Notes under the pieces: model-generated
What the model saw: only the letters and a program-made list of their open reading frames with translations
What the model was told of the DNA's origin: nothing
Database searches by the model: none
In this document: positions 19,283-25,059 of the stretch, piece after piece
How the letters are laid out: each line of letters begins with the position of its first letter
How positions within the stretch are numbered: the stretch's first letter is position 1
Made by a program: the position numbers and the translations under genes
NCBI RefSeq assembly: GCF_902729405.1
Contig: NZ_LR746496.1
Location: 2,294,001 to 2,358,000 of the forward strand
Origin: Acididesulfobacillus acetoxydans
GTDB taxonomy: Bacteria; Bacillota; Desulfitobacteriia; Desulfitobacteriales; Desulfitobacteriaceae
DNA: 64,000 nucleotides
Reading direction: 5' to 3'

Positions 19283-19969
19283 TCAGGGGATGATTTTTTT
19301 AAGCACAAATATCCCCGCCTTGCGTGCCAGGGGCAGGCCTACCCGCTTCAAGAGAGGTATTCCCACATGTTGGGCCAAGGGCGGTCCGAGGCGTTTGGCG
19401 AGGGGCGGGCCCAAGCGGCGGGCCACAGGAGGTCCAAACCGGCGTAACAACGGCGGTCCATATTGCTTCGCAAGGTAGAGACCGGCTTCCTGCCAGGTGG
19501 AGCCGCCGGTCAGCAGACTTTCGAGAGAGGGCTGCCCAGAGGGGCTTGACGGAAGTACTTCTTCAACCGGCGCGGGAGAAAGTTTGGCGGCTTTTGGCTC
19601 GGGCGGGAGGAACCGGGGAAGCATGCGGGACAAATGGCCGCGGGGTCCGGAGTCAGGGGGAAGAAAAGGAAGGGGAAGAGGCCAGGGCAGGGATGGCGCT
19701 TGAGATAAACCCTGGTGTGGGGCGGTAGAGAGCGGCGCGGGAGATGTTCCCGACTTAAGCGGAGTCTGCGGTGCTTCCCGGGGATTTGTGAACTGAGGTT
19801 TGGGATTGGCGGTTGAGAGCGCCTGGGAATTCGAGGCCGGTTGGGCGTCAGAAGCTGAGGCCGGCCGGAAAGAAGCGGCCGGAGGCTGCAGGGGACGCAT
19901 TCTTCCGGGCAGGACGCTTAAGGGCAGCGTGCCGGGTTTTATTCCGGGCTCGTAAGCAAAGGCTGGCAT
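19283..19969 (-). CDS. Proline-rich protein with GPPLA octapeptide repeats
   Basis: A 228-residue protein of unknown family. ATG at 19969 has a GGAGGGG site; an in-frame ATG at 20008 does not. Residues 1-150 are Pro/Ser/Ala-rich and probably disordered. The C-terminal 58 residues are seven contiguous octads of the form (Y/F/L/V/A)-G-(P/I)-P-L-(A/L)-(K/R)-R, for example LGPPLAKR, ending in KKIIP. The repeat is cationic and amphipathic with regularly placed Gly-Pro-Pro, which could bind membrane or a polymer. No signal peptide. Not recognised; it stands alone with a 75-bp repeat downstream. Confidence 0.65.
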   Translation of the reverse strand: MPAFAYEPGIKPGTLPLSVLPGRMRPLQPPAASFRPASASDAQPASNSQALSTANPKPQFTNPREAPQTPLKSGTSPAPLSTAPHQGLSQAPSLPWPLPLPFLPPDSGPRGHLSRMLPRFLPPEPKAAKLSPAPVEEVLPSSPSGQPSLESLLTGGSTWQEAGLYLAKQYGPPLLRRFGPPVARRLGPPLAKRLGPPLAQHVGIPLLKRVGLPLARKAGIFVLKKIIP

Positions 19970-20116
19970 GAACACCCCTCCCCAGGTGAAAGATGGGTTA
20001 TCTGCCATATTTTATGTTAAACACGGGGGAGGGGTGACGGAATACCGTGTTTGCCGGGAGCCTCCTGCCTGTAGGGGTAGCGGTTGAATAGGAGTAGTGG
20101 GCGAACCGGTACGCCG

Positions 20117-22781: not shown

Positions 22782-22822
22782 TGTGCCGCATATCGAGATT
22801 CCCGTCTGATTTGTGACCAAAG

Positions 22823-22849
22823 TCCCTGCCCCCGAGGCAGGGATTTTCT
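22823..22849 (+). terminator. Rho-independent terminator
   Basis: TCCCTGCC/GGCAGGGA with a 5-nt loop, followed by TTTTCTT, 42 nt after the MFS stop. Confidence 0.9.
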
Positions 22850-22946: not shown

Positions 22947-24284
22947 ATGTCAAATCTTCTGGGGGACTACTTGGCAGGCAAAGGATTGTCGCAGGCGGAG
23001 ATAGCTAGGCGCGCCGGAGTGAGCAAAAGTTATCTGTCCATGATCGCCCATGGTCAGAGGCGGTCTCTGAATCCCCTGATCGTTGAAAGACTTGCCCGAG
23101 AACTGGGTCTGGCGCCCCCAGAATTGAAAAGCCTTCTCGGCCACGGTTCTGAGACTCAGCCCGCCCGGTCCGGGGTTTACCCTGGGACGGGGAACGACGG
23201 GCCCGGGCAGAGCGGCTTGGCGCTCTTCTACCAGGCTTTGGAACAGGGTTTGCGCGCTGAACATGCCAACAACCGGAATGAGTTGGAAAGGGTCTGCCGG
23301 GTAATTGCCGGAATGGATCAAGGGCTGGTGCCCCTTAGGCGGAACTTCCTCTGCTGGCATGAGGCTCTGGAATTGGCTTGGCAGAACCGTTTTGAGCAGT
23401 CTCTGGCAGTTCTGAGGGCAGCTGTCGGGTTCAAACCCACATCTCCCTTGGAAAGGCGGTTTAAGGCCAAGATCATCGGAGACATCGGGGCAGTTCTGGT
23501 GGCTCGGGGCTGTTACAAGGAGGCGTTGAAGAGCCTGAGGTTAAGTCTGATTCTTTGGGATGAGGGAGAGCAGGGAGCGGTGGTGAACCTTAACCTAGGC
23601 ACACTCTTCCGGAGAACGGACAACTTCGCGGATGCCGTCGAAGCCTATGAAAAGGCGGTTTTGATGGGTTCCCCCTCGCTGAAACTGCTGGCGTATGCCG
23701 GACTGGGCCAGGTCAGCCTGGACCAAGGGGGTCTGGGTCAGGCACGGAAATATCTGCTGAAAGGGTATGCACTGTCCAGAAGCCTGAAGGATGCCCCTCA
23801 GCGGGCCGACATCTTGTGCAACCTTGGAAAATACTACAAGGAAGCAGGTAAACAGAGCCGGGCCGTATACCTGTTAAGCAAAGGTTTGGAAATTGCCTCC
23901 GTTGACGGTAACACCAGGACAAAACTTTATCTCTTGGCCGAATTGGCGGATATCTATCTGGTTAACGGCCGCCTTAAGCAGGCCGATCGAATCTTGGCCC
24001 GGATTGAAGAAGATGCCGCCGCGGACGGGGGAGATGTTCTCCTGGCGGGGCTCTGCCTGACAGCCCTGGCCAAGAAGGGACTCTGCCTGGGTCAAATTCA
24101 ACAGTCCCTGCTCGTACTCAACAGATGTTACCGGGCTTTGTCCAAGTTTGCCCCCACTGCCGAATTTGAGACCTGTTGCGACCTTCTGCGGCAAGCACAT
24201 GTTCGCTTGAGAAAACCGCAAGAAGCCGCATTTTTTGCCGGCGAAGTGAGGCGCGCCCGGAAGGCGCTCAAACGCCGGACTTAG
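22947..24284 (+). CDS. HTH-TPR regulator, RNPP-like
   Basis: A 445-residue cytoplasmic protein. ATG at 22947 has an AGGAGGT site. Residues about 5-60 form a Cro/C1-type helix-turn-helix (LSQAEIARRAGVSKSYLSMIAHGQR). From about 85 to the end it is alpha-helical with TPR-like repeats, e.g. GCYKEALKSLRLSLILWDEG, FADAVEAYEKAVLMG and ADILCNLGKYYKEAGK. HTH plus C-terminal TPR superhelix and this length match RNPP peptide-pheromone receptors such as NprR (about 420 residues). The next gene, 86 bp downstream, is a tiny ORF with a signal-like hydrophobic core and its own promoter, the usual receptor-pheromone order. The pheromone role is inference; a plain HTH-TPR transcription factor is the alternative. 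Confidence 0.8.
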   Translation: MSNLLGDYLAGKGLSQAEIARRAGVSKSYLSMIAHGQRRSLNPLIVERLARELGLAPPELKSLLGHGSETQPARSGVYPGTGNDGPGQSGLALFYQALEQGLRAEHANNRNELERVCRVIAGMDQGLVPLRRNFLCWHEALELAWQNRFEQSLAVLRAAVGFKPTSPLERRFKAKIIGDIGAVLVARGCYKEALKSLRLSLILWDEGEQGAVVNLNLGTLFRRTDNFADAVEAYEKAVLMGSPSLKLLAYAGLGQVSLDQGGLGQARKYLLKGYALSRSLKDAPQRADILCNLGKYYKEAGKQSRAVYLLSKGLEIASVDGNTRTKLYLLAELADIYLVNGRLKQADRILARIEEDAAADGGDVLLAGLCLTALAKKGLCLGQIQQSLLVLNRCYRALSKFAPTAEFETCCDLLRQAHVRLRKPQEAAFFAGEVRRARKALKRRT

Positions 24285-24313
24285 TGAACGCCGGAATTTC
24301 GACTGAATCTGCG

Positions 24314-24344
24314 TTGTCCGCTTCTGAAAATTCGCTATTATAAT
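24314..24344 (+). promoter_or_regulatory. Promoter of the small peptide gene
   Basis: TTGTCC at 24314 and ATTATA/TATAAT at 24337-24344 (17-19 nt spacing) lie between the regulator stop and the peptide ORF, so the peptide can be transcribed independently of the regulator gene. Confidence 0.6.
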
Positions 24345-24370
24345 ACAAATATAGAAAGGGGGTGAGGCAA

Positions 24371-24484
24371 ATGTTCACGCGGGGAAAGAGCGGGGCATTC
24401 GGCTGGGTTTTAGAGCTCCTGACTCTCGTCTTCCTGGTGACTCCGGCGATAGATCCGATTAAGCTGATCCATTTCTTTGGCTGA
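24371..24484 (+). CDS. 37-residue hydrophobic peptide, candidate pheromone precursor
   Basis: A short ORF with a strong GGGGGTGAGG ribosome site. It encodes a basic N-terminus (MFTRGKSGAFG), a hydrophobic core (WVLELLTLVFLVTPA) and a short tail (IDPIKLIHFFG). This is the layout of small exported peptides and single-pass micro-membrane proteins. It directly follows an HTH-TPR receptor-like gene, as papR, nprX, aimP and phr genes follow theirs, so the C-terminal tail could be the signal. No homologue is recognised; a small membrane protein unrelated to signalling is possible. Confidence 0.55.
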   Translation: MFTRGKSGAFGWVLELLTLVFLVTPAIDPIKLIHFFG

Positions 24485-24599: not shown

Positions 24600-24688
24600 T
24601 TGTATTAAAGGCAAATCCATCGAAAGGTGGAGACGCAAAGCATAGGGTCTAAGGTGCCGCCGGCACTATGACAGCCTGGCTGCTACAC
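24600..24688 (+). ncRNA. Cyclic di-GMP-I (GEMM-I) riboswitch
   Basis: Contains the family core in order: AAAGGCAAATCC, a stem capped by a GAAA tetraloop (CGAAAGGTGG), the receptor side GACGCAAAGC, GGGTCTAA, then a second stem, ATGACAGCC and GGCTGC closing P1. These are the conserved c-di-GMP-binding and tetraloop-receptor positions. It lies 70 nt upstream of a small membrane protein gene, with a terminator-like hairpin between. Confidence 0.9.
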
Positions 24689-24695
24689 TATCGGC

Positions 24696-24733
24696 AATCA
24701 GACCTGCCCGTTCCGGAGCCGGGTCTGATTTGT
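24696..24733 (+). terminator. Expression-platform terminator of the riboswitch
   Basis: AATCAGACC/GGTCTGATT with a GC-rich loop, then TTGTCTCTC. It follows the aptamer directly and ends before the ribosome site of the next gene, so it is the likely switch element. The U tract is poor, so on/off sense cannot be told. Confidence 0.65.
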
Positions 24734-24753
24734 CTCTCAGGGAGGTGAAACCA

Positions 24754-25059
24754 GTGCTGGACTTCTATACGTACTCGTCGCTCGACTCATTGACGGGAGC
24801 AGTCACAGCAACACTTCTCGTGGTAGAGTTTCTTAAGAACTTGGGGCCCTTCCGGCACCTGCCCACCCGCTGGCTGGTCCTGATGGTTGCTGAAGGCATC
24901 GTCACAGGGACCGGTATCTTTGCGGGTCACTTTACTTTATCCGGTATTCCGCTTTGTCTGCTCAACGGTTTGTTGGTAGCCGCCAGTGCGGCCGGCGGCT
25001 GGCATGTCGTTTCCGGCAACCTCTTCGGCGGCGGGCGAAGACACCATGGGGTAAGGTAA
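24754..25059 (+). CDS. Small membrane protein under c-di-GMP riboswitch (holin-like)
   Basis: A 101-residue protein starting at GTG 24754 behind GGGAGGTG. It has three hydrophobic stretches (about 12-30, 43-62, 66-90), an amphipathic loop FLKNLGPFRHLPTRW, and a Gly/Arg/His tail. Size and topology recall small holin-like proteins, but no family is firmly recognised. Its riboswitch places it among c-di-GMP responsive genes, so a surface, export or motility/biofilm-linked role is likely. Followed by a strong terminator; single-gene unit. Confidence 0.65.
   Translation: MLDFYTYSSLDSLTGAVTATLLVVEFLKNLGPFRHLPTRWLVLMVAEGIVTGTGIFAGHFTLSGIPLCLLNGLLVAASAAGGWHVVSGNLFGGGRRHHGVR

Follow-up and report, generated by a model that had tools for sequence, protein, structure and literature searches.

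An HTH-TPR regulator of Acididesulfobacillus acetoxydans and the small ORF behind it very probably form a two-gene RRNPP-type peptide quorum-sensing system with a 'PxIDPI' pheromone, judging from comparison with related sequences. Membership of the RRNPP group has good probability and is carried by architecture, linkage and fold. The pair lies in a 64,000-nucleotide stretch (the window) of a 4,520,225-bp single-contig genome. An earlier note on this DNA had described a 445-aa HTH-TPR protein, a gap of 86 bp and a 37-codon ORF that has a promoter of its own and a strong ribosome site, and we confirmed each of these elements on the sequence (Table 1).

Table 1. Coordinates of the regulator-peptide locus and the features downstream of it (window numbering)
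Feature	Position	Strand	Basis
HTH-TPR regulator, candidate pheromone receptor	22947..24284	+	ORF, 445 aa; stop TAG ends 24284
Candidate operator half-site TTCGAC, 41 bp upstream of -10	24298..24303	+	Position-locked word, seven loci
Propeptide promoter	24314..24344	+	Pattern scan and conservation with CEB3
Ribosome-binding site AGAAAGGGGGTGAGG of propeptide gene	24354..24368	+	Sequence; identical in CEB3
37-aa propeptide gene, family core near C-terminus	24371..24484	+	ORF, ATG at 24371; family of eight
c-di-GMP-I riboswitch aptamer	24600..24687	+	Rfam RF01051, 80.3 bits; conserved in CEB3
101-aa membrane protein ORF	24754..25059	+	ORF; homologues elsewhere; family unassigned

The regulator carries an Xre-type HTH (Pfam HTH_3, residues 12-60) and TPRs over approximately residues 212-355 (TPR_12, E=1.2×10−18). 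A strong terminator-like hairpin at 22819-22847 separates its gene from an upstream MFS gene. Further upstream, on the minus strand (19283-20008), a 241-aa proline-rich frame ends in RxGPPLAKRLGPPLA-type repeats. Published limits for the detection of RRNPP systems are 250-500 aa for the receptor, 10-100 aa for the propeptide and −60 to 400 bp for the spacing (PMC10075063). The regulator, with its size and TPR repeats, lies within these limits, as do the small ORF and the gap between the two, and the ribosome site ahead of the propeptide is of the good strength that is looked for in RRNPP propeptide genes.

We modelled the regulator with AlphaFold (mean pLDDT 83.8) and obtained a helical superhelix, with the TPR part extending over residues ~86-444. 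Fold comparison of this model gave NprR as the best match by Z score (5dbk, Z 25.4, 344 residues aligned), followed by RapJ with peptide (24.9), Rap-phi3T of phage phi3T (24.3) and RapF with peptide (24.0), and the top seven rows by Z consisted of these four proteins only. Eukaryotic TPR proteins of the LGN type came just behind, with Z 23.8 against 25.4 for NprR, and when Foldseek matches were ranked by E-value LGN came first and Rap-phi3T was at rank 31. A sequence profile compared with solved structures returned NprR (E=3.5×10−5 and 5.6×10−4) as the sole named RNPP receptor. The predicted fold is thus compatible with pheromone receptors and closest to them by Z, but not exclusive to them; since LGN-type TPRs score nearly as high, the fold alone does not make the regulator a pheromone receptor. 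Docking of the peptide tail was attempted with a receptor-peptide read-through construct of a related locus (CEB3c, stops replaced by Gly), which gave a tail pLDDT of 25-31 and no confident placement.

The translation of the small ORF is MFTRGKSGAFGWVLELLTLVFLVTPAIDPIKLIHFFG; an alternative in-frame GTG start would extend it to 40 aa. It has a basic start, a hydrophobic segment and the C-terminal sequence TPAIDPIKLIHFFG, and it matched no family in Pfam, NCBIfam or PHROGs. The basic start and hydrophobic core, which the earlier note had pointed out, recur in all eight peptides of the family described below: each begins with Lys/Arg and continues into a hydrophobic stretch, with a hydrophobic 15-mer of mean hydropathy 2.15-2.75 (a measure of composition only). 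Pairwise dN/dS of the small ORF between the window and strain CEB3 was 0.48, in an ORF very short for such a test. This value does not by itself reject neutrality, so that the case for the small ORF rests on the wider comparison. On that sequence comparison, the small ORF is a real gene and more than a chance frame.

Eight loci, spread over five genomes of a single family, carry the pair; all are from related soil and mine-water bacteria. The regulators at these loci are 23-85% identical, one locus having the C-terminal half only, and reading the DNA beside each regulator copy revealed small ORFs, 32-53 aa long and preceded by good ribosome sites. In a profile search (E≤1×10−30), 5 of 73 genomes of the order had strong regulator homologues: there are four copies in CEB3, two in G007 and one each in G014, G011 and the genome of the window, with a fragment only in G003. 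A sample of 398 genomes of the phylum yielded no regulator homologue beyond the family (E≤1×10−20, with the best few candidates per genome scored), and no close homologue turned up in phage, plasmid and viral-contig collections. Homologues are few and the family is narrow; among the genomes compared, the subfamily appears confined to one bacterial family.

The congener Peptococcaceae bacterium CEB3 has the same ORF and the same promoter at one of its loci (CEB3a), with 82 of 86 intergenic positions and 29 of 37 peptide residues identical to the window. Average amino-acid identity between A. acetoxydans INE and CEB3 is 89.3% (PMC8982180). At six more loci, a small ORF with the same core adjoins a homologous regulator. 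The peptide gene of G014, which belongs to another genus, is divergent and lies on the other side of the receptor, still linked to it. In G011 the receptor is reduced to a C-terminal fragment, with peptide and promoter intact. An AgrB gene is located ~210 bp before this cut-down receptor on contig 65 of G011 (L063 38-538, 748-1239).

The expectation that regulator and short hydrophobic ORF go together in related genomes was borne out: at the eight loci they co-occur, are adjacent, and their similarities rise together. Regulators lacking the small ORF, which the earlier note had named as a counter-case, were met only as decayed copies, namely on CEB3 contig 41, as a relic in the genome of the window and as the fragment in G003. 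In the first copy on CEB3 contig 41 (L059 9304-9883), the C-terminus of the receptor is cut and the peptide gene is deleted; operator, promoter and ribosome site are retained, and the latter now abuts a frame resembling a glycine-rich secreted protein. The second, decayed receptor in the genome of the window (1,486,380-1,486,646, minus strand; L066 8300-8764) consists of the N-terminal part only, and no peptide ORF was found near it. Convincing matches to the small ORF among the 73 genomes lie only beside receptors.

All eight peptides have the C-terminal core P-x-[ILM]-D-[PG]-I in common, with differing flanking residues (TPAIDPIKLIHFFG, TPAMDPIKLIHFFA, NPQIDPIKLMPYM, VPLIDPIQAAVLH, APLMDGIDCG, SPNIDPIEA, HPNIDPIEGG and RPNIDPIQA); in one G007 peptide, MDGI replaces IDPI. 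The variable C-terminal tail proposed earlier is thus seen in the flanks, but the PxIDPI core is retained and the tail is not freely variable. The mature signal, for which the earlier note had proposed an 11-residue tail, probably centres on IDPI and is not the whole 11-mer. At three loci the hydrophobic part is set apart from the core by a stretch of ~20 or more additional residues, most of them hydrophilic. Together with the conservation of the core and not of the hydrophobic part, this spacer fits a signal peptide followed by a pro-region and a processed mature C-terminus.

We searched the 73 genomes of the order with a peptide profile, and all matches below E=1×10−9 adjoin a receptor; the next-best match (E=0.007) lies within a 378-residue open frame. 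As the profile was made from receptor-adjacent ORFs, this result shows absence elsewhere and is not an independent discovery. The convincing peptide ORFs all fall in the same five genomes, each beside a receptor. Used as a single query, the window peptide confidently matched the CEB3 orthologue only, and the distant peptides were found via the receptor neighbourhood. In 233 kb of the DNA compared, small ORFs preceded by a strong ribosome site numbered 178, four of which carry the core near the C-terminus, the remaining four pairs falling just outside the ribosome-site definition of this count. All four core-bearing ORFs are receptor-adjacent; the other 174 are without the core.

Receptor and peptide similarities were correlated across the loci (Mantel r=0.91, p=0.0003, n=8; r=0.78, p=0.014 without the near-identical CEB3a). 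The receptor clade of CEB3b, CEB3c and G014 has peptides with NIDPI[EQ], and that of the window, CEB3a and G011 has [IM]DPIKL. Because linked genes share their history, the Mantel correlation shows joint inheritance and not contact; shared inheritance accounts for the agreement between receptor and peptide as well as contact does.

The propeptide promoter of the window has a −35 element TTGTCC (24314-24319) and a −10 element TATAAT (24339-24344) or, alternatively, TATTAT (24336-24341). A test for 6-mers shared between the intergenic regions lacked significance (437 of 2000 shuffles), and position relative to the −10 was therefore tested instead. When seven independent loci were aligned on the −10, a CGAC-containing word was located 41-42 or 51 bp upstream, i.e. 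at positions one DNA turn apart. With one mismatch allowed, the best position-locked word, TACGAC, was present at all seven loci and TTCGAC at six, while the best such word in 1000 dinucleotide shuffles reached at most five of seven. The operator evidence is strong, albeit not free of bias, since we picked the −10s and allowed for one DNA turn with the sequences in view. Both copies of the word occur at three CEB3 loci and in G011, where they form a 10-bp direct repeat CGAC-N6-CGAC; the promoter of the window has one clear half-site only. The strict pattern CGAC-N6-CGAC-N35-TANNAT gave four matches in five whole genomes, all in propeptide promoters of the family (at one of them the peptide gene has meanwhile been lost), and its backwards control also gave four matches in five genomes. 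A palindromic operator TTTTGTCGAC-N8-TTCGACAAAA was rejected, as a genome search within two mismatches returned only two CEB3 receptor loci. The candidate site is located upstream of the −35, ~40-50 bp ahead of the −10 and not within the core promoter, at spacings that differ by one DNA turn. From this placement, the propeptide promoter seems more likely to be activated, with positive feedback, than repressed.

We propose that the propeptide would leave the cell, probably via Sec, and be cut down to a short peptide around IDPI, which an Opp-type permease would re-import; the genome of the window encodes seven SBP_bac_5 oligopeptide-binding proteins. The peptide would then bind the concave TPR surface of the regulator and change the action of the HTH on the putative CGAC operator that immediately precedes the propeptide promoter.

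Other readings of the locus have to be weighed against this one. The small ORF could encode a short membrane protein acting inside the producer, as a toxin or regulatory membrane peptide; the HTH-TPR protein would then be its local repressor or antitoxin-like partner, with neither export nor sensing. Such an arrangement would suit an ORF of 32-53 aa that has a single hydrophobic segment, is closely linked to an HTH regulator of the Xre type and comes with a local operator. However, it is the PxIDPI core and not the hydrophobic part that is conserved, three loci carry a spacer of at least 20 residues, and a full NprR/Rap-like TPR domain would be needless for a plain antitoxin; we consider this reading unlikely. 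Distinctly unlikely, in our judgement, is a peptide that signals to the TPR protein from within the cell, or via another export route (PptAB-like or none), and so reports on the cell's own state and not on density. Export and import are steps that we infer, and the window peptide, which continues for ~11-14 residues past its hydrophobic part, has no signal-peptidase site that is clear by eye. Against this, all eight peptides have the basic-then-hydrophobic start that is typical of exported RRNPP propeptides, and the seven SBP_bac_5 proteins are available in the genome.

Two further readings concern the nature of the small ORF itself. It might be untranslated, the conserved DNA serving as promoter or leader for the riboswitch-controlled 101-aa gene downstream; the dN/dS of the ORF is not decisive here, and conservation is higher in the intergenic DNA than in the ORF. 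The same amino-acid core nevertheless recurs where both the DNA and the downstream genes are unrelated, which makes this reading very improbable. Hardly credible is an AgrD-like precursor processed by AgrB, with the TPR linkage secondary. The AgrB gene adjoining the decayed receptor in G011 would speak for it, but AgrB was not found in the genomes of the window (G000), CEB3 (G001) and G007, to which six of the eight pairs belong, and the peptides have neither a conserved Cys/Ser for ring formation nor an acidic tail. We rejected AgrBD identity, there being no AgrB match in three of the five genomes. The two-gene quorum-sensing system with an exported PxIDPI pheromone thus remains our preferred reading.

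Downstream of the pair, the riboswitch and a following terminator-like hairpin span 24600-24735 and precede the gene of the 101-aa membrane protein, an arrangement common to the window and CEB3a. The membrane protein has a dN/dS of 0.09 versus CEB3, and four distant homologues of it have no c-di-GMP-I riboswitch nearby. Between the peptide gene and the riboswitch we saw neither a terminator nor a convincing separate promoter, so that read-through from the propeptide gene into the riboswitch is possible, and the membrane protein is a possible target of the window's pair. It is conceivable, albeit doubtful, that the peptide-controlled transcript runs through the riboswitch and its terminator, so that synthesis of the membrane protein would require the peptide signal and a suitable c-di-GMP level at once. 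If true, a cis-encoded gate would join peptide quorum sensing and c-di-GMP on one RNA. At the second G007 locus (G007b, L062 9390-10052), a gene for an HD_5 (HD-GYP-like) protein comes next after the peptide, as another hint of c-di-GMP.

At other loci a secreted protein follows the peptide directly (G011, 256 aa; G007a, 291 aa; G014, 172 aa; CEB3b, 129 aa). In G014 it is succeeded by two SurA-N-like proteins. On CEB3 contig 37 (L058 9184-12785), the CEB3b pair and its secreted protein are followed by a protein of 301 aa that has no Pfam match, by an ABC ATPase and by two further membrane-type proteins; the gene content of this cluster suggests a small secreted product accompanied by genes for export or immunity. 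The pair-adjacent secreted proteins show no homology between loci and mostly have no Pfam family match, as would be expected of pairs that each control a secreted product of their own. We therefore regard a secreted product as the probable output at these loci.

In the open papers searched, we found no description of RRNPP signalling in Desulfosporosinus, Peptococcaceae or Acididesulfobacillus. Neither Peptococcaceae nor Desulfosporosinus is mentioned in the main text of PMC10075063 or of PMC12700828, and the propeptide set that belongs to PMC10075063 may hold some of the pairs unnamed. We accordingly call the pairs a new subfamily of a known kind. The bacteria concerned are of interest for the treatment of acid mine drainage, and the linked secreted-protein genes suggest products that they make at high density. 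Moreover, eight diverged pairs with a conserved core, three of them in one strain, provide a set for testing how paralogous receptors discriminate between peptides.

The layout of the locus fits the comparison with PlcR, NprR, AimR and Rap systems drawn in the earlier note. In AimR-AimP of arbitrium phages, too, an HTH-TPR receptor precedes a small peptide gene; AimR identity of the regulator was rejected, as the NCBIfam model NF038310 scored 13.6 bits against a curated cut-off of 70. Rap proteins of Bacillus and its phages share the TPR domain architecture, and their partner Phr is a small protein with a C-terminal pheromone. Unlike the regulator described here, which is of the DNA-binding type, Rap has no HTH domain. 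NprR-NprX of the Bacillus cereus group is the best structural match and likewise combines an HTH and TPR receptor with a downstream propeptide gene, but NprR is only ~14% identical to our regulator over the TPR domain and its pheromone has a different core; the phosphatase function of NprR is not implied here.

By description of its organisation, the closest precedent is Qsr/Qsp of Clostridium acetobutylicum, in which an HTH-TPR regulator is also followed by its precursor and several paralogous pairs occur in one genome. Eight putative RRNPP Qsr/Qsp systems have been reported in that species, with precursors of 39-50 aa that have only few C-terminal residues in common (L, P, W) (PMC7376267). 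The core found here is PxIDPI, has no conserved Trp and does not follow the L..P..W pattern of Qsp. In QspB, the active AEPTWGW is internal and is followed by a C-terminal extension (PMC7376267), and in this it resembles IDPI, which here stands ahead of extensions of the KLIHFFG type.
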